DNA of 33,893 bases from Bacteroidales bacterium (GTDB lineage: Bacteria; Bacteroidota; Bacteroidia; Bacteroidales; GWA2-32-17). Shown piece by piece: positions 3,234 through 33,145 of the stretch. The stretch lies in contig JABUFC010000035.1 of assembly GCA_013314715.1 (NCBI GenBank), positions 1 through 33,893 on the forward strand, read 5' to 3'. Below the pieces are notes generated by a model. The model made no database searches and had not been told where the DNA came from. It worked only from the letters and a program-made list of their open reading frames with translations. The translations under genes and the position numbers were made by a program. The first letter of the stretch is position 1; each line of letters begins with the position of its first letter.

Positions 3234-3914
3234 ATGAAATTTGATATGGCTAAATTTTTTAACACTTCTGTAGGAAAAAAAATGATTATGAGTTTAAGTG
3301 GTCTTTTTCTAATAGTATTTTTATTGGTGCATTTGACCGCAAATTTAACGGCAATAATAGATAGCTCTGGCGAAACTTTTACCAGAGTTGCCGACTTTAT
3401 GGAAGAAAATCCATTAATAAAAATAATGCAATATGTATTAGCTGCGGGTTTTATTTTACATATTTTTTATGGTACATGGCTCACGTATCAAAATCGTAAA
3501 AAACGTCCAATACCTTATGCTGTTTCGACCCAAACAGATGTTTCGTGGTCGTCGCAAAACATGTGGGTTACAGGAGCATTGGTATTGGGCTTTTTAATTC
3601 TTCATTTATATAATTATTTTTATAAACTTCAATTTACCGATTTGATTGAGAGCGGTCAAATGACAAAATACGAGTTATTAAAAAGTATTTTTCAAGCTGA
3701 TAATTGGCTATATAGTGTATTATACATAGTATGGTTTGTGATTTTAGCTTTACACCTCAATCATTCATTGCAATCGGGTTTTCAAACGTTAGGTTTAAAT
3801 AATCAAAAATGGATAGGTAGGTTAAAATGGATTAGCAGCATATATGCTATTATTATTGCTGTTGGCTTTAGTAGCATTACATTATATTTTTTCATTCAAT
3901 CACTGAATAATTAA
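3234..3914 (+). CDS. sdhC: Succinate dehydrogenase / fumarate reductase cytochrome b558 subunit
   Basis: Membrane anchor of complex II that takes electrons to the quinone pool through haem b. 226 residues with five hydrophobic helices (about 17-38, 63-84, 110-130, 160-180, 200-222). Histidines inside helices (H33 in LLVHLTAN, H76 in FILHIFYG, H124 in LILHLYNY, H174/H177 in LALHLNH) are candidate haem ligands, consistent with the single-polypeptide dihaem b558 type used by Bacteroidota and epsilon-proteobacteria; no separate SdhD is encoded. First gene of sdhCAB, 7 bases before sdhA. The annotated ATG 3234 gives MKFDMAKFF; the ATG at 3246 (MAKFFNTS) is a plausible alternative given how close the promoter box is. 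Confidence 0.92.
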
Positions 3915-3921
3915 AAAGAAT

Positions 3922-5862
3922 ATGGCAATATTAGATCCTCGAATACCAGAAGGTCCCATTGATAAAAAGTGGACATTATTTAAGTCAAGCTGTAAGTTAG
4001 TGAGTCCCGCCAATAAACGTAAATTAGATGTTATTGTGGTGGGTACCGGTTTAGCGGGCGCCTCAGCAGCTGCATCTTTAGGAGAATTAGGGTACAATGT
4101 TAAAATATTTTGTTATCAGGATAGCCCACGAAGGGCACATAGTATAGCAGCACAAGGAGGAATTAACGCCGCTAAAAATTATCAAAATGATGGCGATAGT
4201 GTATATCGTCTTTTTATGGATACGCTTAAAGGTGGCGATTATCGTGCACGCGAGGCTAATGTTTATCGTTTAGCCGAAGTGAGCAACGCTATAATAGATC
4301 ATTGTGTAGCTCAAGGTGTGCCATTTGCACGCGATTATGCTGGTTATCTCGATAATCGTTCTTTTGGGGGCGCTCAAGTATCGCGTACCTTTTATGCACG
4401 TGGACAAACAGGGCAACAATTGTTGCTTGGAGCCTATAGTTCACTCAATCGTCAAATTAAACAGGGAACGGTTAAATTATATCAACGTCGCGATGTACTT
4501 AATATTGTTGTTGTAGACGGCAAAGCACGTGGTATTATTGTACGCAATTTAGTAACGGGCGAAATAGAACGTTATTCTGCACATGCAGTTGTTATAGCGA
4601 CGGGTGGATATGGAAATTTATACTATCTTTCAACCAATGCCATGGGGTCTAATGCTACAGTTATTTGGCAAGCCTATAAAAAAGGAGCGTATTTTGCCAA
4701 CCCTTGCTTTACTCAAATTCATCCAACATGTATCCCTGTACATGGCGAATATCAATCAAAACTCACACTGATGAGCGAAAGTTTGCGAAACGATGGTCGC
4801 ATATGGGTGCCTAAAAAAATTGAAGATGCACGTAAGCTTCAGCGTGGAGAAATAAAAGCCAACGATATTCCCGAAGAAGATCGCGATTATTATTTAGAAC
4901 GCAGATACCCTGCTTTTGGAAATCTTGTCCCTCGCGATGTGGCTTCGCGTGCTGCTAAAGAACGTTGCGATGCTGGTTTTGGAGTTAATAGTACAGGATT
5001 AGCCGTTTTTCTCGATTTATCAGATGCTATTAAGCGTTTAGGTAAAGAAGTTATTGAAAAACGTTACGGTAATCTTATTCAAATGTATGAAAAAATTACT
5101 GGCGATAACCCATATGAAACTCCTATGATGATTTACCCCGCTATTCATTATACAATGGGTGGATTGTGGGTTGATTATCAACTAATGAGCAATATTCCCG
5201 GCTTGTTTGTTATAGGCGAAGCTAATTTTAGTGATCATGGAGCCAATAGACTTGGGGCTTCTGCTCTTATGCAAGGTTTAGCCGATGGATATTTTATTTT
5301 GCCTTATACCATTGGTAATTATTTGGCAGATATGGTGAAGACTCCTCGCTTAGATGTTCAAACTAAAGAATTTGATTTAGCCGAAAATGAAGTGAACGAA
5401 AGAATTCAACGTTTGATGTCGGTAAATGGAAGTGAACCAGTTGATTTTTACCATAAAAAGCTTGGCAAAATAATGTGGGATTATGTTGGCATGGCTCGTA
5501 ATGCCCAAGGTTTAACAATGGCTATAGAAAAAATAAAAGAGATACGTCAAGAATTCTGGAAAAATGTAAAAATACCTGGCACTACTACCGAGTTCAATTC
5601 CGAATTAGAAAAAGCATGGCGTGTAGCCGACTTTTTAGAATTAGGCGAATTATTAGCTAAAGACGCACTCCATCGCGAAGAATCGTGTGGAGGACATTTT
5701 CGTGAAGAAAGTCAAACCGACGATGGAGAAGCAAAACGTAACGACGAACAATTTGCTTATGCAGCAGCATGGGAGTTTAAAGGCGAAAATAATGACCCCG
5801 AATTGCATAAAGATGAATTAATATTTAAAGAAGTAGAGCTTGTTCAACGTAATTATAAATAG
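3922..5862 (+). CDS. sdhA: Succinate dehydrogenase / fumarate reductase flavoprotein subunit
   Basis: Catalytic subunit of complex II, interconverting succinate and fumarate with covalently bound FAD. 646 residues. The dinucleotide-binding motif is G41-T-G43-L-A-G46. The covalent FAD histidine is H73 in [12 protein letters not shown]. Substrate-site residues follow the family pattern: [14 protein letters not shown] (154-167), H267-P-T269, SESLRNDGR (285-293) and R338 in VPRDVASRA as the expected catalytic arginine; [12 protein letters not shown] lies in the second FAD segment. It sits between sdhC (7-base gap) and sdhB (7-base gap to the chosen start), so the operon encodes the full enzyme. 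Direction (oxidation or fumarate reduction) cannot be read from sequence. Confidence 0.96.
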
Positions 5863-5869
5863 AATTCCT

Positions 5870-6613
5870 ATGAACATAAAATTAAAAATATGGCGTCAGG
5901 CAAACCCTAAAGATAAAGGACATTTTGAGACTTATTCGTTAGAAAATATAAGTCCCGATACCTCATTTTTAGAAATGCTCGATATTCTTAACGAAAAACT
6001 TATTCGCGAAGGTAAAGATCCAGTTGCTTTTGATCACGACTGCCGCGAAGGAATATGTGGCATGTGTAGTTTGTATATCAATGGTCGCCCTCATGGTCCT
6101 GACGACGATATTACGACTTGCCAACTTCATATGCGTAAATTTAAAGATGGTGATACTATTACAATAGAACCTTGGAGAGCTGCAGCATTCCCTGTTGTAA
6201 AAGATTTAATTGTAGATAGAAATGCTTTTGATAAAATTCTGCAAGCTGGAGGTTTCATATCTGTTAATACGGGTTCAGCGCCCGATGCCAATAGTATTTT
6301 AATTCCGGCTAAAATTGCCGACGAAGCAATGGATGCAGCAGCTTGCATTGGATGTGGAGCTTGTGTCGCTGCTTGCAAAAATTCTTCTGCAATGTTATTT
6401 GTTGCCGCTAAAGTGTCGCAATTAGCTTTATTGCCACAAGGAAAAGCCGAAGCTACAAAACGAGTCAAAGCGATGATTGCCAAAATGGATGAACTAGGTT
6501 TTGGAAGCTGTACCAATACCGGTGCTTGTGAGGCTGAATGTCCCAAAAACATTTCTATTGCTCATATAGCTCGCCTCAATAGAGAATATTTATCAACAAC
6601 TATTAAAGATTAA
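5870..6613 (+). CDS. sdhB: Succinate dehydrogenase / fumarate reductase iron-sulfur subunit
   Basis: Electron-transfer subunit linking SdhA to SdhC. 247 residues from ATG 5870. A TTG at 5840 extends the frame by ten residues but lies inside sdhA and adds no family-like sequence, so the ATG is preferred. Cluster ligands: C58, C63, C66 (CREGICGMC) and C84 for [2Fe-2S]; C159, C162, C165 (CIGCGAC) and C169, with C214, C220 and C224 ([11 protein letters not shown]), for the [4Fe-4S] and [3Fe-4S] centres. Every expected cysteine is present. Last gene of sdhCAB; a hairpin terminator begins 27 bases after the stop. Confidence 0.95.
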
Positions 6614-6664: not shown

Positions 6665-7039
6665 TTACATTTCTACAAATTCAAAAGGTATTTTAAGCAA
6701 TTTAGAAAAACGAACACCCGATGAGTGCATATCGGTATCGTCTTTTAAATAATGCCAACGAATCAAAACTTCGTGTGTTTGTGCTATTTCTTGTAATATA
6801 AGTAAAATTTTTGCTAGTTGTTTTGCAGAAGCAGTATTGAAATATTCTAATTTAAAATTAAAAACGGTTTTGGGTAATGGATCTTTTTTATATTCATTAA
6901 GCCAATTTATAACAGGTTCGTAAAATGCAATTGCATTTTCGGGTAATGAACGATAACCTATTTCAAAAATTCCTTGTTCTTTATTCAAAATAACCGATGG
7001 TGTGTCTTCTTGTTTCACAATATTTATTGGTTCTAACAT
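6665..7039 (-). CDS. SiaC-family regulatory phosphoprotein (DUF1987), copy 1
   Basis: 124 residues of the SiaC/DUF1987 family. Visible family features are TPSVILNKEQGIFEI near the start, LPENAIAFYEPVINWL (residues 32-47) and LEYFNTASAK (64-73). In Pseudomonas aeruginosa SiaC, the threonine of the equivalent N-T-S-S motif (T68) is phosphorylated by the kinase SiaB; the matching residue here is T69. Family knowledge: SiaC is an anti-anti-sigma-like switch whose unphosphorylated form binds the diguanylate cyclase SiaD. No SiaD is encoded in this window, so the target here is unknown. The gene lies 8 bases downstream of a SiaB homologue on the same strand, the same order as the second pair at 25071-26030. 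Confidence 0.85.
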   Translation of the reverse strand: MLEPINIVKQEDTPSVILNKEQGIFEIGYRSLPENAIAFYEPVINWLNEYKKDPLPKTVFNFKLEYFNTASAKQLAKILLILQEIAQTHEVLIRWHYLKDDTDMHSSGVRFSKLLKIPFEFVEM

Positions 7040-7047
7040 AATCTAAT

Positions 7048-8175
7048 TTATTCAACTGCAATTAAACTTTGCAAACTTAAAAATGAATATTGATTGTTTA
7101 TAGGAAGAATATCATATTGAACTGGAAAACCGCTTTTCAGACGAATATCTATCATGCCTAAACCTGTTTTTTTAGAATTTGCGCCCTCAAAGTTAAACAA
7201 ACTATCATTATAATATTCATCAATTTCATCTTTTGTTAATGAATTTACTTTATCAATTTTCTTTTTAAGAGATATAAGTTGTTCGTTATCAATAAAATTG
7301 CCTGTTAAGATACGATAAAAATTTTTATTAAAACCAAGTAAAAATATTCCTGGAATTACATCCTGATCGTAACCTTCATTTGGGATATATCCGTGTTTAA
7401 TAATGTTTTGAAGCATTTCAACAACAACATAAAATACTTTCTTTTTATGGCTAATGCTTCCGGTCATTTGTCCTTCAAGCGAATTAAGTAAGGTAAGTAA
7501 GCTTTCTTGATTAAATGGACCATTGTTAATAATTGAAAGGTTTTCTTTATTTAAAATAGCATGAATTTTTTCGACAAAATGAAATTCATTGATGCCAATG
7601 TTCTGACCTTGTAATTCTTCTTCAACAATAGGTACTGTACAAAGATAAAAATACGAAAGTTCGCCCGAAAGAGGAACAAATTTATATATTAACTTGTTAC
7701 CTGCTTTACGTGCCATGTCTATTAGTCCTAGTCCAGCTCCACCTTTGTCTGATATAGAACCTTCTTCTAAAACGGTTTTGTAGTATTCTTTGAGTTCGTC
7801 TTTGCTGAGTGTATTTATTTTATCAATTAACGCTTGTAAGTATGGAATATTTTTAGTTTGAGCTATATTGCCTGTTGTAATTACATAGCGGTTGTTCATT
7901 TTTTGAATTAAAAATAAACTGTCGTGTTGAGGGTCCACTTCTACATCCGATGCTTGGTGGCGTGTAACATTTTGCAATGCTTCGACTAAAATGTTATAAA
8001 CGCGCTTTTTTATTTTCGAAGATTCTTCTTGTTTTTCAAGTTTGTTCTCGGTTAAAGATAAAATAGTGTCGGTAACATCTTGTGTAAAAATCCCTTTATA
8101 TATATACCCTAGATGATAATCTTGCATGAGAAAAAACAACTGTTTAACGAAATCAAGTGATTGATTTTCGACCAT
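7048..8175 (-). CDS. Tandem SiaB-family protein kinase-like protein (two fused domains)
   Basis: 375 residues from the ATG at 8175. Two homologous halves are visible. Half 1 has VEALQNVTRH (64-73) and KGGAGLGLIDMARK (144-157); half 2 has VVEMLQNIIKH (251-261) and KTGLGMIDIRLK (336-347). Both repeat the pattern E-x-x-QN-x-x-(R/K)H followed about 75 residues later by a glycine box, which resembles the N and G boxes of GHKL-type ATPases and matches the single-domain SiaB homologue at 25071. Half 2 has lost the GGAG part of the glycine box. SiaB phosphorylates SiaC in Pseudomonas. The frame can be read from TTG 8196, but that codon lies in a -7 promoter box, so ATG 8175 is chosen. Followed by siaC after 8 bases. 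Confidence 0.8.
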   Translation of the reverse strand: MVENQSLDFVKQLFFLMQDYHLGYIYKGIFTQDVTDTILSLTENKLEKQEESSKIKKRVYNILVEALQNVTRHQASDVEVDPQHDSLFLIQKMNNRYVITTGNIAQTKNIPYLQALIDKINTLSKDELKEYYKTVLEEGSISDKGGAGLGLIDMARKAGNKLIYKFVPLSGELSYFYLCTVPIVEEELQGQNIGINEFHFVEKIHAILNKENLSIINNGPFNQESLLTLLNSLEGQMTGSISHKKKVFYVVVEMLQNIIKHGYIPNEGYDQDVIPGIFLLGFNKNFYRILTGNFIDNEQLISLKKKIDKVNSLTKDEIDEYYNDSLFNFEGANSKKTGLGMIDIRLKSGFPVQYDILPINNQYSFLSLQSLIAVE

Positions 8176-8193
8176 AGCTCGCGATTTTAATAG

Positions 8194-8201
8194 CAAATAT
8201 A
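8194..8201 (-). promoter_or_regulatory. -7 promoter element for the tandem siaB-siaC operon
   Basis: The minus strand reads TATATTTG (8201-8194), an exact TAnnTTTG match, 18 bases before the ATG at 8175. It covers the TTG at 8196 that would otherwise be the upstream start. A TTTG at 8215-8212 is only 10 bases away, shorter than usual for a -33 element. Confidence 0.55.
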
Positions 8202-24057: not shown

Positions 24058-24178
24058 ATTGAAAAAAATGAAATAGTCATCTTATTTGTAAAAATGTAAT
24101 AAAATAAATGCTATAATTAGGTTTTGTTTTTAAAGAATGTTTGTCTTAATTTGTAAAAAAAATGAACTCAATGCTGCA

Positions 24179-25009
24179 ATGGAGATAAAAGAAGACGAAA
24201 TAAAAGATATTGTAAAGGTTATTTACGATTTATCGGGATATGATTTTTCTGATTATTCTCCTAAGTCATTATTACGTCGGTTTGAAAAGATATTAATCGA
24301 TTACCAATGCACAATGCCTGAACTTATAAGCAAATTAAAAACAAATCCATTGTTAATTGAATCAATAGTAAAAAATATAACGGTAAATACAACCGAATTT
24401 TTTCGCGACCCTTTAGTTTGGATCGAATTTGAAGAAAAAGTAATACCCGAATTAAAGAAACATGAACAGATTAAAATTTGGCATCCTGGTTGTTCGCTTG
24501 GACATGAACCTTATTCGATGCTCATAATGCTTAACGAACATCAATTATTAGATAAAGCTGAAATTATTGCAACCGATTTAAACTCAGATGTGTTAGCAAC
24601 AGCGAAAAATGGTATTTTTAGATATTTCTTAGATATAGAATATTTAAAAAATTTTGATTCCGTTATTAATCGCGACCCTTTAAACTATAAAGTTCCGTAT
24701 GATAAATATTTTGATTTAGAGGCCTCCAAAGATATTTTTAAAATCAAATCCGAATTTTTAGGTAAAATTAAATTTTATAAACATAATTTAGTTCAAGATC
24801 CCTTTCCACATCCCGATTCATTCGATCTTATTATGTGTCGCAATGTTTTAATATATTTTAACATGGAGCTACAAAATAAGATTATCTATAATTTTTACAA
24901 ATCGTTAAAATTAAATTCCTACTTAATATTAGGGTATCATGAATCTATTCTTGGAAGCCTATCCAACTTTTTTGATAAAAATGGTCAAGTTTATAAAAAA
25001 TCAAAATAA
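24179..25009 (+). CDS. CheR-type SAM-dependent protein-glutamate methyltransferase
   Basis: 276 residues from ATG 24179. An in-frame ATG at 24137 adds 14 residues (MFVLICKKNELNAA) that do not look like a CheR N-terminus, so the inner start is preferred. The N-terminal helical domain has YDLSGYDFSDYSPKSLLRRFE. Catalytic-domain motifs: VNTTEFFRDP (69-78), the SAM-binding GCSLGHEPYS (104-113), D133 in ATDLNSDVL, and CRNVLIYF (220-227). The usual GEEPYS reads GHEPYS, with the key second glutamate kept. CheR methylates glutamates of chemoreceptors, but no receptor, CheA, CheW or CheB is encoded nearby. The gene instead precedes a SiaB-SiaC pair by 61 bases, so a non-chemotaxis signalling role is plausible but unproven. 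Confidence 0.85.
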   Translation: MEIKEDEIKDIVKVIYDLSGYDFSDYSPKSLLRRFEKILIDYQCTMPELISKLKTNPLLIESIVKNITVNTTEFFRDPLVWIEFEEKVIPELKKHEQIKIWHPGCSLGHEPYSMLIMLNEHQLLDKAEIIATDLNSDVLATAKNGIFRYFLDIEYLKNFDSVINRDPLNYKVPYDKYFDLEASKDIFKIKSEFLGKIKFYKHNLVQDPFPHPDSFDLIMCRNVLIYFNMELQNKIIYNFYKSLKLNSYLILGYHESILGSLSNFFDKNGQVYKKSK

Positions 25010-25070: not shown

Positions 25071-25643
25071 ATGGCTATAGTAGCTAATATACAACTACTA
25101 ACCGATTATTTGCGACAAATAAATGTTGATATTCATGCAAATAACGTAATTCTTTTATACGAAGGCGAAGTTAATCACGATATTATAAAGTCCCTATTGA
25201 TAACACTTGAACAGCGATTTAAAAAATCAACATTAAGTAGAACTATTCAAAAGAAAATTTTTAATGTAATGGTAGAATGTATTCAAAATATTGAAAAACA
25301 TACTATTACATTTATATCTGAAAATAAAGAATTTTATAAACGAGGTTCCATGTTAATTATTGAAAATCAAAATGAAATATTGATTTATTCGGGTAACCTT
25401 GTTGATAAAGATCAAATGAGTTTTTTACAACAAAAACAACTGCTGTTAAAAGATAAAACTAAACAACAGTTGCGTTCAATGTATAAACAACAACTCATAC
25501 AGGGAACAATAAGCCACAAAGGAGGTGCTGGTTTAGGTTTTATTGATATGGCGCGTAAAACTGATAATCAAATGGATTTCTATTTCTTTGATATAAATGG
25601 CAATTTTTTCTTTTTTGTAAATAGGATAATGATAAAAAAATAA
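25071..25643 (+). CDS. SiaB-family protein kinase-like protein, single domain
   Basis: 190 residues. Core motifs are MVECIQNIEKHT (64-75), matching an N box, and SHKGGAGLGFIDMARKT, a glycine box near the C-terminus. These are nearly identical to half 1 of the tandem protein at 7048-8175 (KGGAGLGLIDMARK), so the two loci are paralogous. The glycine box is complete, so this copy is expected to bind ATP. By analogy with Pseudomonas SiaB it should phosphorylate the SiaC homologue encoded 3 bases downstream. No membrane segment or sensor domain is visible. It lies after a CheR homologue. Confidence 0.82.
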   Translation: MAIVANIQLLTDYLRQINVDIHANNVILLYEGEVNHDIIKSLLITLEQRFKKSTLSRTIQKKIFNVMVECIQNIEKHTITFISENKEFYKRGSMLIIENQNEILIYSGNLVDKDQMSFLQQKQLLLKDKTKQQLRSMYKQQLIQGTISHKGGAGLGFIDMARKTDNQMDFYFFDINGNFFFFVNRIMIKK

Positions 25644-25646
25644 TAT

Positions 25647-26030
25647 ATGAACCCATTAGTAATTCCTGCAACAATTGATAGTCCCGCTGTAAATCTCGAT
25701 AAAGAAAAACAAATATTTGAGATAAAAGGGAAAAGTTTGCCAGAAAATGTAAATGTTTTCTATCAACCTATAATCGATTGGTTCACAGAATATTTTAAAA
25801 ATCCTAACGAAGAAACTATTTTACATTTTAAGCTCGATTATTTAAATACTGCATCCTCAAAAGCTTTATTATCATTATTTTTAGTAGTCGAAGAGGCTAT
25901 TAAAAATGGAAGAAAAGCCATTGTAAAATGGTATTATGAAGAAGACGATGAGGACATGAAAGATATTGGCGAGGAATATGCTGATATTATTCAAATTCCT
26001 TTCGAAATAATACAGATTGATAACGAATAA
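25647..26030 (+). CDS. SiaC-family regulatory phosphoprotein (DUF1987), copy 2
   Basis: 127 residues, clearly homologous to the protein at 6665-7039: SPAVNLDKEKQIFEIKGKSL, LPENVNVFYQPIIDWF (31-46) and LDYLNTASSK (63-72). T68 in N-T-A-S aligns with the phosphorylated threonine of Pseudomonas SiaC, and its number is the same. The C-terminal part (VKWYYEEDDEDMKDIGEEYA) is acidic, as in the family. Starts 3 bases after the siaB-like stop, so the kinase and its presumed substrate are co-translated. ilvE follows 12 bases later, possibly in the same transcript, which could be incidental. Output partner unknown. Confidence 0.85.
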   Translation: MNPLVIPATIDSPAVNLDKEKQIFEIKGKSLPENVNVFYQPIIDWFTEYFKNPNEETILHFKLDYLNTASSKALLSLFLVVEEAIKNGRKAIVKWYYEEDDEDMKDIGEEYADIIQIPFEIIQIDNE

Positions 26031-27283: not shown

Positions 27284-29608
27284 ATGAAAGTTTTAGTTTC
27301 CTTTTTGGTTATATTTTTTCTCTTATCATCTTACCATTTATATTCACAAATTCCTATCATGCAGTGGCGTTCGCATTTATCTTATTCGCAGGGCAAAGCC
27401 GTTATACCTGCCGAAAATGTTATTTACTGCTTAACCGATGGTGGATTATTTTCATATAACATTTACGATAATTCGATTCAAAAGCTTGATAAAAATTTTG
27501 GTCTCTCTGACGTTACCATTACAACCGTTAATTATGATGATAGTAAAAAGTTAGTTGTAATTGGATATGATAATGGCAATATTGACATCATAAAAGGCAA
27601 TCAAATTATTAATGTATCTGATATTTTTCAAAAACCCATAATAGGCAATAAAGCCATTAATCATATTCGTTTTTATTGTGGATTAGCCTATTTAGCCTGT
27701 GGTTTTGGAATAGTAGTGCTCGACTTAGATAAATATGAAATAAAAGAGACTTATTTTATTGGATTAAATGGAGTAAATATAAATGTAACTTCTATCGCTT
27801 TTACAGATCATTATATTTTAGCTTCAACAACAGAAGGCGTTTATAAAGCTTTAAAAAATGGTGTTAATTTAGCAAATTACCAAAATTGGAGCAAAATAAC
27901 CGAAGTGCCCAATTATTTTGGAAATTTCAAAAAGGTTGAATATTTTGATAGTAAAATTTGGCTTTTCTATTGTTCGGGAAATTCTACTGGCGATAGAATT
28001 TATATGAGTAATGATAACAACACTTGGGAAGTTTTCGACACTACGATAACTCATGTTTCAGCGATGAAAGTATATAACGATAAAATGATTATTAGCCAAT
28101 ATAACAAAGCCACAATAGTTTCAGCTGGATCCCATGTTAGCATTTATGATGTATGGGGTATAAATCCGCGCGATGCTGCATACGATAAAAATAATAACTT
28201 ATGGATAGCTGATGGATATGGTGGACTTGTAAAAAAACTGTATAACCACTCTGATGATGTTGTAAGCTTTATTCAACCTAATGGTCCATCAGAAAATAAC
28301 TGTATGCGCATTGATTGTGGCGAAAACAATTTATGGGTAGCTCGTGGTGCTTTGAGCAGCGCTTGGAATAACCAGTGGGTAAGTGGAAAAATTTTCAGAT
28401 TCCACAACGAACAATGGACTTCGTTTTCAGCCGATAATAATTCCAAATTAACGAATGTAAAAGATATTTGTTTTGTAAAAGTAGACCCTAAAAATGCTAA
28501 ACATGCTTATTTTGGGTCGTATGGTATGGGTTTAATCGAAGTTAACGACGGTTCAATAATTGAAGTTTACGACGACCAAAATAGTCCCTTGCAAAACATT
28601 TTTCCCGGACAACCGTTTGTTCGTGTTACAGGAATGGATTTCGATTCTAATGGAAATTTATGGATTATTAATTCTGAAGTTAACAACAATCTTACCATTC
28701 GTAAATCGGATGGTACCTGGAAATCAATCTCATTAGCCAATGCTATGGGAGGTGCCAAAATAACAGGCGAACTCCTATGCACTTCTGATGGTACTAAATG
28801 GATTATTTTCCCGAAAGGAGGAGGCTTGTTTGCTTATAACGAAAATGGAACAATCGATAATTTATCAGATGATAAAACTAAAGCAATATCTATTATTAGT
28901 CCCGAGGGCGAAGCAATTTCAAACGATGTTTATTCAATAGTTGAGGACAAAGACGGATTACTATGGGTTGGAACAGCCAAAGGACTTGTATTTTATTATA
29001 ATCCTTCACAAGTTTTTGAGTCTTCTGGTTTTTATGCACAACGCATAAAGTTACCCAATGAAATAGAAGGGCAAGCAAACTATTTATTCGAATCTGAAGT
29101 AGTAACAGCCCTTGCCATAGATGGCGCTAATCGAAAATGGGTAGGTACTTTATCGGGTGGGGTGTTTTTAATGTCGGCCGACTGCCAAAAAGAAATATAT
29201 CATTTTAAAACGGACAATAGCCCATTATTATCGAATAGTATTAATGATATTGCAATTGACCCTAAAAGTGGTGAGGTATTTTTTGCTACCGACAAAGGTA
29301 TATGCTCTTTTAGAAGTACTGCAACTGAAGGATTAGAATTTCATCATAATGTAGAAGTTTTTCCAAATCCAGTTCGACCAAATTATAATGGTAATATTGC
29401 AATTAGAGGATTAGTTAAAAATGCTCACGTCAAAATAACCGATATTGCTGGAAATTTAGTTTACGAAACTACAGCCGAAGGCGGACAAGCCAATTGGAAT
29501 GGAAAAAATTTATCGGGCAATAGAGTAAGCACTGGTGTGTATTTAATTTTTTCGACTAACGACGATGGTAGCGAAACCTTTGTTTCTAAAATTTTATTTA
29601 TAAATTAG
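27284..29608 (+). CDS. porZ: Type IX secretion system protein PorZ
   Basis: 774 residues, close to the length of Porphyromonas PorZ. A signal peptide (1-21, ending LYS|Q) is followed by IPIMQWRSHLSYSQGKAV, the characteristic PorZ start. Repeated beta-propeller blades follow, resembling two-component-regulator propellers (DGGLFSYNIYDNSIQKL; NNLWIADGYGGLVKKL; GLLWVGTAKGLVFYY; RKWVGTLSGGVFLMS). The last 90 residues form a type A T9SS sorting domain (VEVFPNPVRPNYNG, VKITDIAGNLVYE, STGVYLIFSTNDDG, SKILFIN). In P. gingivalis PorZ is a surface component of the attachment complex that delivers anionic LPS to exported cargo. It is the only T9SS machinery gene in the window and appears to stand alone. 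Confidence 0.88.
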   Translation: MKVLVSFLVIFFLLSSYHLYSQIPIMQWRSHLSYSQGKAVIPAENVIYCLTDGGLFSYNIYDNSIQKLDKNFGLSDVTITTVNYDDSKKLVVIGYDNGNIDIIKGNQIINVSDIFQKPIIGNKAINHIRFYCGLAYLACGFGIVVLDLDKYEIKETYFIGLNGVNINVTSIAFTDHYILASTTEGVYKALKNGVNLANYQNWSKITEVPNYFGNFKKVEYFDSKIWLFYCSGNSTGDRIYMSNDNNTWEVFDTTITHVSAMKVYNDKMIISQYNKATIVSAGSHVSIYDVWGINPRDAAYDKNNNLWIADGYGGLVKKLYNHSDDVVSFIQPNGPSENNCMRIDCGENNLWVARGALSSAWNNQWVSGKIFRFHNEQWTSFSADNNSKLTNVKDICFVKVDPKNAKHAYFGSYGMGLIEVNDGSIIEVYDDQNSPLQNIFPGQPFVRVTGMDFDSNGNLWIINSEVNNNLTIRKSDGTWKSISLANAMGGAKITGELLCTSDGTKWIIFPKGGGLFAYNENGTIDNLSDDKTKAISIISPEGEAISNDVYSIVEDKDGLLWVGTAKGLVFYYNPSQVFESSGFYAQRIKLPNEIEGQANYLFESEVVTALAIDGANRKWVGTLSGGVFLMSADCQKEIYHFKTDNSPLLSNSINDIAIDPKSGEVFFATDKGICSFRSTATEGLEFHHNVEVFPNPVRPNYNGNIAIRGLVKNAHVKITDIAGNLVYETTAEGGQANWNGKNLSGNRVSTGVYLIFSTNDDGSETFVSKILFIN

Positions 29609-30884: not shown

Positions 30885-31730
30885 ATGAGGTATTTATTTA
30901 TTTTAATTGCTTTAATATTTTTTTCTCTGTCTTGCCAAAAATGGGATAAAGAAGAGGATATACCTTCGTATATTCGTATTGTAAACGCCAGTATATCAAC
31001 TAATTATGCCACACAAGGTTCAAATAGTTGTAAAATAGCCGATATATGGGTTAACATTGATGGCAACAGACAAGGTACATACGAAATTCCAACACGTTTT
31101 CCTGTTTTAGCTACAGGCAAACACAATATAACATTAAGAGCAGGAATAAAAGTAAACGGAATTAGTGCAAGTAGAATTATTTATCCTTTTTATAATATTT
31201 TAAATATCGACACGATTTTACCCGAAGGAAATATTCTTACCCTGTCGCCAGTTTTTACCTACAAAACCGAAACTGTTTTTGGATGGAGAGAAGATTTTCA
31301 GGGTAACGGTTTTAGCTTAGATAGAGATACAGAATCGGACACTTTACTTTATGCCATTTCGGACTCACTAGGGAATAAAGTTGGAAAATTTTCGATTGAT
31401 GCTATTCGTCAACGATTTTATTATAAATCGGCCGATGCATTTACTTTACCCAAAAACGGAACTGCTATATTTTTAGAGTTCGATTATCGTTGTAATCACC
31501 CTTTTTCGGTAGGACTTATTATAAATAAATTACAATCATCAATAGTTACGCCTTTATTAATATTAAACCCACACCCAAACACATTTAATCATATATATGT
31601 CGATTTTTCTTACATAGTTAATCAAAATGTAGATGCCATAGATTTTAATGTTATTTTTCAATGCAACATACAAGAAGGCTACACCCAAGGAGATGTAGAA
31701 ATTGATAATATTAAATTACTTCATTTTTAA
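30885..31730 (+). CDS. Lipoprotein of unknown function
   Basis: 281 residues. A short lipoprotein signal with the lipidated cysteine at C17 (IFFSLSCQKWDKEED). The mature part begins with an immunoglobulin- or DUF4397-like stretch (SYIRIVNASIS, WVNIDGNRQGTYEIPTRFPVLATGKHNITLRAG). A second part from about 130 (FGWREDFQGNGFSLDRDTES; AIFLEFDYRCNHPFSVGLII; QGDVEIDNIKLLHF) has a strand pattern suggestive of a jelly-roll carbohydrate-binding fold. Neither assignment is certain. The TAA overlaps the ATG of the phosphoglycosyltransferase (TAATG, 31728-31732), so the two products are made together. That suggests a role in envelope glycan assembly, but this is inference from position. Confidence 0.78.
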   Translation: MRYLFILIALIFFSLSCQKWDKEEDIPSYIRIVNASISTNYATQGSNSCKIADIWVNIDGNRQGTYEIPTRFPVLATGKHNITLRAGIKVNGISASRIIYPFYNILNIDTILPEGNILTLSPVFTYKTETVFGWREDFQGNGFSLDRDTESDTLLYAISDSLGNKVGKFSIDAIRQRFYYKSADAFTLPKNGTAIFLEFDYRCNHPFSVGLIINKLQSSIVTPLLILNPHPNTFNHIYVDFSYIVNQNVDAIDFNVIFQCNIQEGYTQGDVEIDNIKLLHF

Positions 31731-33145
31731 TGAATACAAAACGACAAACAATAAAATACATTATTTCAGATTTTATAGCGGCCTTGTTATCTTGGCTTTT
31801 GTTTTTTACATTCAGAAAAAAAATTATTGAGACAGAATATTTTGGCTACCCCATTCAATTAACTTACGACGAAAAGTTTTTCCTTGGACTTATTCTAATA
31901 CCTTTATTTTGGTTAATATTACATTATTTATCGGGCTATTATCAAGATGTTTACCGTCGTTCACGCTTAAAAGAACTTTGGCAAACATTTTATATTACTG
32001 TTTTAGGAACCATATTTTTGTTTTTTGCATTAGTATTAGACGACTATGTAGTAAGCTATCATGATTATTACCGCTCTGTATTAATGTTGTTTTTTACTCA
32101 ATTTGTATTAACCTATATTCCTCGAATTGCAATAACCACACGTACTATTCATAAAATTCATCAACGTAAAATTGGTTTTCGTACCATTATGGTTGGTAGC
32201 GATAAGAAGGCATTTGATTTATATGAGTATTTCATTAAACAGCCCAAAGGTACAGGAAATTTATTTGTTGGATTTGTAAGCGTAACACCTAAACCCAAGT
32301 ATCGAATTGAACGATATTTAAAACATTTAGGCGATGTTTCAAAATTGCATCATATTATTGACGAAGAAAAAGTACAGGAAGTTATTTTAGCACTTGAAAC
32401 ACGAGAACACGACCAAATTAATGCTATATTGAATAGAATCGAAAATAAAGATGTTGTGATTAAGGCCATACCATCATTATACGATATATTAACCGGTAGT
32501 GTACGCATGTCAACGCCCTACGATGCTCCTTTGATTCAAATATCGCGTGATCTTATGAGTCCATTTGAATCAAACCTAAAGCGGTTGATTGATATTGTTT
32601 TTTCTATTTTTGCTATAATTATACTTTTGCCTGTATATTTGTTTTTAGCCATTGGTGTAAAATTATCATCACCCGGACCTATAATATATACTCACGAACG
32701 TATTGGACGTTTTGGCAAACCCTTCAATATTTATAAGTTTCGTAGCATGTATATCAATGCCGAAGCTATGGGACCAGCCTTATCGAGCAAAAACGATCCT
32801 AGAATAACTAAGTTTGGTCGTTTTATGCGAAAAGTGAGATTGGACGAAACACCCCAGTTTTTTAATGTATTAAAAGGTGATATGTCGCTTGTTGGTCCAC
32901 GACCCGAACGTCAGTTCTTTATCGACCAAATAATGAAAAAAGCACCCCATTATGCTCATCTTCAAAAAGTAAGACCTGGAATCACCTCGTGGGGACAAGT
33001 AAAATTTGGATATGCCGAAAATGTAGATGAAATGATAGAGCGATTGAAGTATGATTTAATTTACATGGAAAACATGTCGCTTTATGTTGACTTTAAAATA
33101 ATGATATTTACCATAAAAATTATTTTTCAAGGGCGTGGAAAGTAA
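31730..33145 (+). CDS. Exopolysaccharide polyprenyl-phosphate sugar phosphotransferase (WbaP/WcaJ type)
   Basis: Initiating enzyme of lipid-linked glycan synthesis, moving a sugar-1-phosphate from a nucleotide sugar to undecaprenyl phosphate. 471 residues. The N-terminal membrane part has helices at about 8-28, 50-68, 85-105 and 115-135. A CoA-binding-like soluble domain spans about 145-260 (GFRTIMVGSDKKAFDLYEY). The catalytic domain starts with a membrane hairpin (KRLIDIVFSIFAIIILLPVY, 284-303) followed by SSPGPIIYTHERIGRFG, FNIYKFRSM and the catalytic D372-E373 pair in RLDETPQFFNVLKGDMSLVGPRPE, then VRPGITSWGQV. All motifs are intact. Its start overlaps the upstream lipoprotein by 1 base; the rhodanese-like gene follows. 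Confidence 0.93.
   Translation: MNTKRQTIKYIISDFIAALLSWLLFFTFRKKIIETEYFGYPIQLTYDEKFFLGLILIPLFWLILHYLSGYYQDVYRRSRLKELWQTFYITVLGTIFLFFALVLDDYVVSYHDYYRSVLMLFFTQFVLTYIPRIAITTRTIHKIHQRKIGFRTIMVGSDKKAFDLYEYFIKQPKGTGNLFVGFVSVTPKPKYRIERYLKHLGDVSKLHHIIDEEKVQEVILALETREHDQINAILNRIENKDVVIKAIPSLYDILTGSVRMSTPYDAPLIQISRDLMSPFESNLKRLIDIVFSIFAIIILLPVYLFLAIGVKLSSPGPIIYTHERIGRFGKPFNIYKFRSMYINAEAMGPALSSKNDPRITKFGRFMRKVRLDETPQFFNVLKGDMSLVGPRPERQFFIDQIMKKAPHYAHLQKVRPGITSWGQVKFGYAENVDEMIERLKYDLIYMENMSLYVDFKIMIFTIKIIFQGRGK

Follow-up and report, generated by a model that had tools for sequence, protein, structure and literature searches.

In the literature examined, the SiaABCD system of Pseudomonas aeruginosa (PDB 6KKO, 6K4F, 6KKP and 7E6G) is a biofilm switch that acts through cyclic di-GMP (c-di-GMP), and the part of PMC7647112 consulted places the phosphorylation of its SiaC at T68. 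Similar partner switches are RsbW/RsbV/RsbU and SpoIIAB/SpoIIAA, which share with it the GHKL kinase fold, a STAS-like substrate and a PP2C phosphatase. A further point of comparison is Rv1747-PknF of Mycobacterium tuberculosis, reported as an ABC exporter with FHA domains encoded in one operon with a Ser/Thr kinase. Here we analysed a stretch of 33,893 nucleotides from a Bacteroidales bacterium (contig JABUFC010000035.1 of assembly GCA_013314715.1), hereafter the window, which encodes two SiaB-SiaC pairs, one of them with a doubled SiaB. The window is the entire contig (C35) of a draft genome of 3.0 Mb that is 99.5% complete.

We propose, with a probability of about one half, that these are Bacteroidota SiaB-SiaC partner switches whose output has moved from c-di-GMP to an exporter with TerB, FHA-like and ABC parts (T), and that the doubled SiaB combines a kinase with a pseudokinase. 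The window would thus hold two of three ancient threonine-phosphorylation switches of the genome. By analogy with the family, SiaB would phosphorylate the Thr of the N-T-(A/S)-S motif of SiaC, and SiaA-like PP2C phosphatases with many sensor parts, encoded elsewhere, would dephosphorylate it. Judging from its motifs, the doubled SiaB would be two kinase units covalently joined long ago, with catalysis left to the N-lobe and the C-lobe serving as a conserved pseudokinase that probably binds SiaC or nucleotide as the regulatory half. The output would most likely be T together with its lipoprotein and a small exported partner, and operon structure and co-occurrence suggest that dephosphorylated SiaC binds the cytosolic TerB-FHA module of the exporter and licenses transport. 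The second pair may be what is left (CheR, SiaB and SiaC) of a stripped CheR-CheB-SiaA-SiaB-SiaC-exporter operon. Neither a doubling of SiaB nor a link between SiaC and an exporter was found described in the consulted portions of open-licence PMC papers.

SiaB-SiaC pairs and their phosphatases

The first pair lies on the reverse strand, with SiaC (group A, 124 aa) at 6665-7039 (PF09345, E 1.3e-33; relatives PDB 6K4F/6KKO) and SiaB (375 aa from the ATG) at 7048-8175. The open reading frame (ORF) 7048-8196 carries two DUF6272 stretches (SiaB, PF19788; Pfam E 9.3e-69), and comparison with relatives favoured the ATG at 8175, the start chosen in the initial annotation, over the TTG at 8196 upstream of it. 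The second pair lies on the forward strand, with a single SiaB (group B, 190 aa) at 25071-25643 (one PF19788 stretch, E 3.4e-31) and SiaC (group B, 127 aa) at 25647-26030 (PF09345, E 2.7e-40), directly downstream of a CheR-type methyltransferase at 24137-25009 (+; PF01739, E 5.9e-40) of the kind found in the CheR-CheB-SiaABC-exporter operon of relatives. The siaB-siaC order described earlier for both loci, with gaps of 8 bases at 6665-8175 and 3 bases at 25071-26030, was borne out by the ORFs and Pfam matches, as was the doubling of SiaB in the first pair alone. The codon of the threonine equivalent to Thr68 of Pseudomonas SiaC lies at 6833-6835 (Thr69, reverse strand) and 25848-25850 (Thr68, forward strand; alignment A2).

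Both window SiaBs passed the NCBIfam model of SiaB-family kinases, NF038262, with 245 and 126 bits against a cut-off of 85, and the SiaB and SiaC sequences matched PDB 6KKO and 6K4F, which supports the window proteins as homologues of SiaB and SiaC. The NCBIfam cut-offs for Pseudomonas equivalogs were not reached by SiaB (114 and 58 bits against 225) or SiaC (61 and 94 against 150). The pairs share with Pseudomonas SiaABCD the SiaB and SiaC folds, the N-T-x-S threonine, the adjacent siaB-siaC genes and a SiaA-like PP2C, found here in the operons of relatives and elsewhere in the genome. They differ from it in having one doubled SiaB whose C-lobe lid is eroded, many phosphatases for few SiaCs, no SiaA-type PP2C in the operons of the window pairs and no SiaD or GGDEF protein. 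They are members of the SiaB and SiaC families and not a SiaABCD system, because SiaD was searched for and not found. In contrast to RsbW and SpoIIAB switches, SiaB and SiaC match Pfam families of their own (PF19788 and PF09345), and the genome contains, apart from these pairs, a single STAS match as well as one strong and two weak RsbW-like matches.

The initial annotation had found no SiaD or SiaA in the window and had proposed a genome search for phosphatases, cyclases and further SiaCs. No GGDEF match was obtained at E<=1 in the whole genome, so the output of Pseudomonas (SiaD) is absent and the output of these switches is not a diguanylate cyclase; a c-di-GMP output in this genome was ruled out on this ground. 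SpoIIE/PP2C matches numbered 20, some of them fragments and none on the window contig. Among ten of these proteins that were scanned, nine matched the phosphatase part of the NCBIfam SiaA model (E<=1.6e-31), with varied sensor parts and none near the whole-protein cut-off, and the tenth (L009) gave no match to this model. One SpoIIE match, at 6216-6815 of contig C62 (G000), is interrupted by a single in-frame stop. Where the initial annotation saw two divergent copies, a third pair is present on contig C16 (SiaB 184 aa, SiaC 128 aa, N-T-S-S), which brings the totals to three SiaC and three SiaB genes with four SiaB domains over the cut-off. This third pair, the upstream CheR gene and the 20 SpoIIE matches had gone unmentioned. 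The genome therefore sets numerous SiaA-like phosphatases against only a handful of possible substrates, and we infer that these phosphatases act on its SiaCs.

In the set of 31 genomes (this one and 30 relatives), SiaB and SiaC co-occurred in the identical 19 genomes, where SpoIIE counts ranged from 4 to 63 against 0 to 2 in the remaining 12. In a phylum-wide sample of 296 Bacteroidota genomes, SiaC was found in 17, this genome included. The SiaB and SiaC trees largely separate the pairs, with many weak forks in the SiaC tree, where group B is not one clade, and this fits pairs that behave as cognate SiaB-SiaC sets. Recent duplication of the two window pairs was ruled out, because the SiaB groups occur across many families of this order and separate on the tree.

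The doubled SiaB

The N-lobe (7612-8175, reverse strand) is kinase-competent by motif, retaining the ExxQN N-box and the ATP-lid box GGAGLG at residues 145-150 (7726-7743, reverse strand; alignment A4), and on inspection the single SiaB also carries ExxQN and the GGxGLG lid. The C-lobe (7051-7593, reverse strand) retains ExxQN, whereas its lid reads KKTGLG at residues 335-340 (7156-7173, reverse strand; alignment A4), with the GG lost. This pattern is general in the loci fetched from the order, which contain 27 doubled SiaB genes including that of the window (two of the 27 are fused to SiaC): the GGxGLG lid was retained in 27/27 N-lobes, 0/27 C-lobes and 40/46 single SiaBs, and ExxQ/DN in all 27 N-lobes, 26 of the 27 C-lobes and 43/46 single SiaBs. 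The C-lobe is therefore probably a pseudokinase.

In a quick maximum-likelihood tree of 100 SiaB domains, from which the lid columns were excluded, all 27 N-lobes formed one clade (support by the Shimodaira-Hasegawa-like approximate likelihood ratio test, SH-aLRT, 97) and one branch (68) had all 27 C-lobes on the same side, which makes a single old fusion the simplest reading. Both lobes are constrained, with nonsynonymous divergence (dN) of 0.05-0.09 within the genus against 0.22-0.42 for the second pair's single SiaB in the same genomes; only dN was used because synonymous sites (dS) were at or near saturation within the genus in several comparisons. The divergence of the single SiaB (25071-25643) looks as if constraint had shifted when its operon partners were lost. 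Fusion with SiaC also occurs naturally, as SiaB-SiaB-SiaC in L053:2067-3584 and L059:6322-7881 and as SiaB-SiaC in L079.

The initial annotation had made its reading dependent on a GHKL-like fold, and this fold was recovered for the doubled SiaB. The model of the doubled SiaB (predicted local distance difference test score, pLDDT, 80.4; predicted template modelling score, pTM, 0.80) had Pseudomonas SiaB 6KKO as its top match (Foldseek E 5.7e-8), the alignment to 6KKO_A falling on the C-lobe (residues 197-372; VIA Z 18.1, root-mean-square deviation (rmsd) 2.7, 166 residues), followed by SpoIIAB and RsbW chains at VIA Z 11-13. As SiaB of Pseudomonas is a dimer (PMC7278518), a fused kinase pair with one eroded lobe would be a natural reading of this protein.

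The exporter T as candidate output

Where the initial annotation had left the output open, its statement that no SiaD-type partner is encoded stands, but the leading candidate is now T. This protein has about 1030 residues, in which Pfam recognised TerB, ABC ATPase and ABC-2 membrane domains (PF00005 E 3e-34 and PF01061 E 8.3e-21 in the copy of L101), the last two being the feature of an Rv1747-type exporter. The TerB part of its model resembled 2H5N (Z 8.9). The part after TerB appeared FHA-like, matching the FHA domain of MEK1 (Z 8.3, rmsd 2.1, 77 residues) and, lower down, many other FHA entries, at a Z near 8 for which the search tool warns of a possibly common arrangement. With profile A6 of this part the sole PDB match up to E 10 was again the MEK1 FHA domain, weak at E 0.098, and Pfam found neither an FHA nor another domain in it. 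FHA domains bind phosphothreonine; the usual binding residues were not discernible in alignment A6 of T. For both Rv1747-PknF and T, an ABC exporter with a cytosolic FHA fold, putative in T, is encoded beside a threonine-phosphorylation system, whereas T has an N-terminal TerB and one FHA-like domain unrecognised by Pfam, and the kinase involved, a SiaB-type one, would work by way of SiaC.

The proposed link between T and SiaC comes from gene context, which we compared at 90 loci, 20 further exporter loci, 24 loci of the phylum sample and 80 named loci. The named set comprises the 80 best among 573 confirmed matches, with 79 of the 80 scorable, and is biased towards the exporter context because the query alignment contained T-linked SiaCs. 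The recurrent gene set consists of CheR, often a second CheR, CheB, a GAF protein, a SiaA-like phosphatase, SiaB, SiaC, T, a lipoprotein and a small exported protein; in relatives the exporter occupies the slot after SiaC where Pseudomonas has siaD. CheR, CheB, PP2C, SiaB, SiaC, T and the lipoprotein were all present in 46/80 named loci; among those scored, T directly followed SiaC on the same strand in 67/79, and a SpoIIE gene lay at most four genes upstream of SiaC in 63/79. Isolates carrying the complete operon include Alkaliflexus imshenetskii (L208), Persicobacter sp. CCB-QB2 (L214) and Chryseotalea sanaruensis (L229). The presence of CheR and CheB inside such operons (e.g. L101, L168 and L208) suggests a methylation input to the same switch.

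The exporter was also present in all 19 genomes with SiaB and SiaC, and in the 12 genomes without them only a weak partial match was found (G012, E 5e-7). By a binomial estimate uncorrected for descent, the chance of this split is ~7e-9 by genome and 1.5e-6 by family (T in 10/10 families with the pair and 0/12 without). Out of 49 full-length matches to the N-terminal T model, 16 adjoin a SiaB-SiaC pair by hand count, including L085, with T beside SiaB, and L093, with a 71-codon ORF in between. In the tree of T, which has three clades, the B-context copies fell into one (7/7, SH-aLRT 100) and the C-context copies into another (8/8, 99). The genome itself encodes two T copies, one on C52 in the C-context clade and one on C6 in the third clade, both with intact Walker A, signature and Walker B motifs, and from these data the exporter is inferred as the output in this genome. 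In the phylum sample, which is less biased than the named loci, T adjoined SiaC in 4/6 loci of the class of the window, from four genomes with at least one such locus each.

The link between the doubled pair and the exporter is the weakest part of the proposal and comes solely from the Cytophagales loci L196, L226 and L244, where the doubled pair is found immediately past the T genes, convergent with a SpoIIE gene. The second pair of the window is arranged as CheR-SiaB-SiaC followed by an aminotransferase-like gene and porZ (type IX secretion; 27284-29608, NCBIfam 705 bits against a cut-off of 260), and clusters of the aminotransferase-like gene and porZ also lie downstream of the second type of pair in L063-L069. 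Elsewhere the window encodes a PafA-type alkaline phosphatase (313-1962), a succinate dehydrogenase/fumarate reductase operon (3234-6613) and an exopolysaccharide sugar-phosphate transferase (31730-33145).

Docking helices and alternative readings

In Bacteroidota of other classes, the place after SiaC is taken by other proteins. SiaA-SiaB-SiaC is followed by a GGDEF protein in L142 and L145 (by Pfam) and in L146, where the GGDEF motif lies in a split frame. A histidine kinase follows SiaC in L144 and stands one gene further on in L160, a SpoIIE phosphatase follows it in L152, and a protein of 77-99 residues in L148, L158 and L163, with an AAA protein after it in the last two. These multi-AAA proteins (AAA_lid_6; L158:2893-6702 and L163:3679-6618) may be a further output, and in all three loci with the small protein the phosphosite of SiaC is Ser instead of Thr. 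A helix with the pattern [RK]-[ILVM]-[SG]-D-x-x-Q is common to the N-termini of these SiaC neighbours, and a profile built from ten such proteins had as its top PDB match SiaD in 7E6G (E 0.007), at both motifs of the stalk. According to the part of PMC8457831 consulted, SiaC T68 contacts S82 and Q86 of SiaD in this structure, with S50 and Q54 as the equivalents in the second motif, and the SiaD double mutants retained SiaC binding, which was less stable for S82A-Q86A. The match at the stalk motifs therefore supports a portable SiaC-docking helix across GGDEF proteins, histidine kinases, a PP2C phosphatase and small proteins. The profile recovered six more proteins in the fetched loci, and such helices are found at L142, L144, L145, L148, L152, L158, L160, L163 and L222, mostly in other Bacteroidota classes.

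The face of SiaC appears to differ with its neighbour. Position 69 is Ala in 66/67 T-linked SiaCs and Ser in 13/13 docking-linked ones and in Pseudomonas, and position 31 is Leu in 67/67 T-linked and Tyr or Phe in 11/13 docking-linked SiaCs. The initial annotation had matched the N-T-A-S motif to the Pseudomonas phosphosite; the motif is indeed present in both window SiaCs, but its Ala69 is of the exporter-linked type. Both are of the T-linked kind at positions 69 and 31, and the SiaC of C16 has Ser69 and Ile31. Relative to Pseudomonas, the SiaD-touching positions of the three SiaCs are altered: S69 has become A in two of them, Y31 is replaced by L or I, and D114 by I or L.

Several observations weigh against the exporter as output and the C-lobe as pseudokinase. 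Within the 19 genomes with SiaB and SiaC, the number of SpoIIE proteins was not correlated with that of SiaC (rho 0.14), and we rejected the idea that the phosphatase count simply follows that of SiaC, since the two agree in presence only. The co-occurrence of T with SiaB and SiaC ignores shared descent, and T adjoined SiaC in 0/18 loci of other classes in the phylum sample. In the family of the window, no T lies beside either kind of window pair, the second pair lacks an adjacent SiaA, and the B clade contains none of the 15 T copies placed in the tree (of 20 matches). The model of SiaC read through into the first 250 residues of T reached a pLDDT of 82 and a pTM of 0.61, so that how SiaC would sit against T is not confidently predicted. 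The SiaD-type docking motif was found in 0/72 T proteins and the docking-helix profile likewise found none, which gives no support to T as a docking-helix protein; two of the six further helix proteins are encoded after SiaC in L222, which is labelled Bacteroidia, and T is therefore not the sole partner of SiaC even in this class. Among nine named doubled genes, one of which (L166) probably comes from the contig of L038, the C-lobe GG was lost in six and kept in three (L196, L226 and L244, all Cytophagales), which probably dates the lid loss after the fusion.

These points bear on four other readings. SiaC could target a docking-helix protein encoded elsewhere, such as a histidine kinase, a phosphatase or a small adaptor, with the exporter a mere fellow traveller in the regulon. 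The helix matching the SiaC-binding stalk of SiaD, the two such proteins of L222 and the lack of the helix in T speak for this, but the profile found nothing above the inclusion threshold in the loci fetched from the order (L029-L117 and the window; the whole genome was not searched), T adjoins SiaC in two paralogous settings with matching T clades, and the contact residues of SiaC differ between the T-linked and docking-linked kinds. We regard this reading as unlikely, and only slightly less so the one in which the C-lobe is itself an active kinase whose lid differs. The latter would account for the nearly universal ExxQ/DN of the C-lobes, the GGAGLG retained in the three Cytophagales genes and the strong constraint on this lobe (dN 0.05-0.08 within the genus), whereas the loss of GG in every C-lobe of the order, against its retention in every N-lobe, and the smaller number of conserved columns (17 against 30 in the N-lobe) argue for a pseudokinase.

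Partner switching by a kinase that holds its target is established for RsbW, which SiaB resembles in fold, and free SiaB, or its C-lobe, might similarly hold a target and release it when SiaC is dephosphorylated. This is improbable, given that no obvious target gene adjoins the doubled pair in the window and that in Pseudomonas it is SiaC, not SiaB, which binds SiaD (PMC7278518). An output through a diguanylate cyclase, as in Pseudomonas, would follow from the homology of SiaABC and has a precedent in the GGDEF proteins of L142, L145 and L146, but with no match in this genome and GGDEF in just 3/31 genomes it deserves hardly any weight, unless a divergent cyclase escaped the search. The exporter T is retained as the preferred output. 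More tentatively, and at less than even odds, SiaC may be a general plug-in phospho-switch whose output has been swapped repeatedly, the docking helix bringing in a diguanylate cyclase, histidine kinase, PP2C or small adaptor and, in Bacteroidia and Cytophagia, a TerB-FHA ABC exporter engaging a remodelled SiaC face, with the fused kinase-pseudokinase funnelling many sensor phosphatases to one exporter system. If SiaB and SiaC do drive an exporter in part of the Bacteroidota, organisms without a c-di-GMP cyclase would have a phosphorylation system linking about twenty sensor phosphatases to a mere handful of substrates. The tuning of such convergence could be tested directly on the fused kinase-pseudokinase, and SiaC targets could be sought by sequence in any genome with the portable docking helix.

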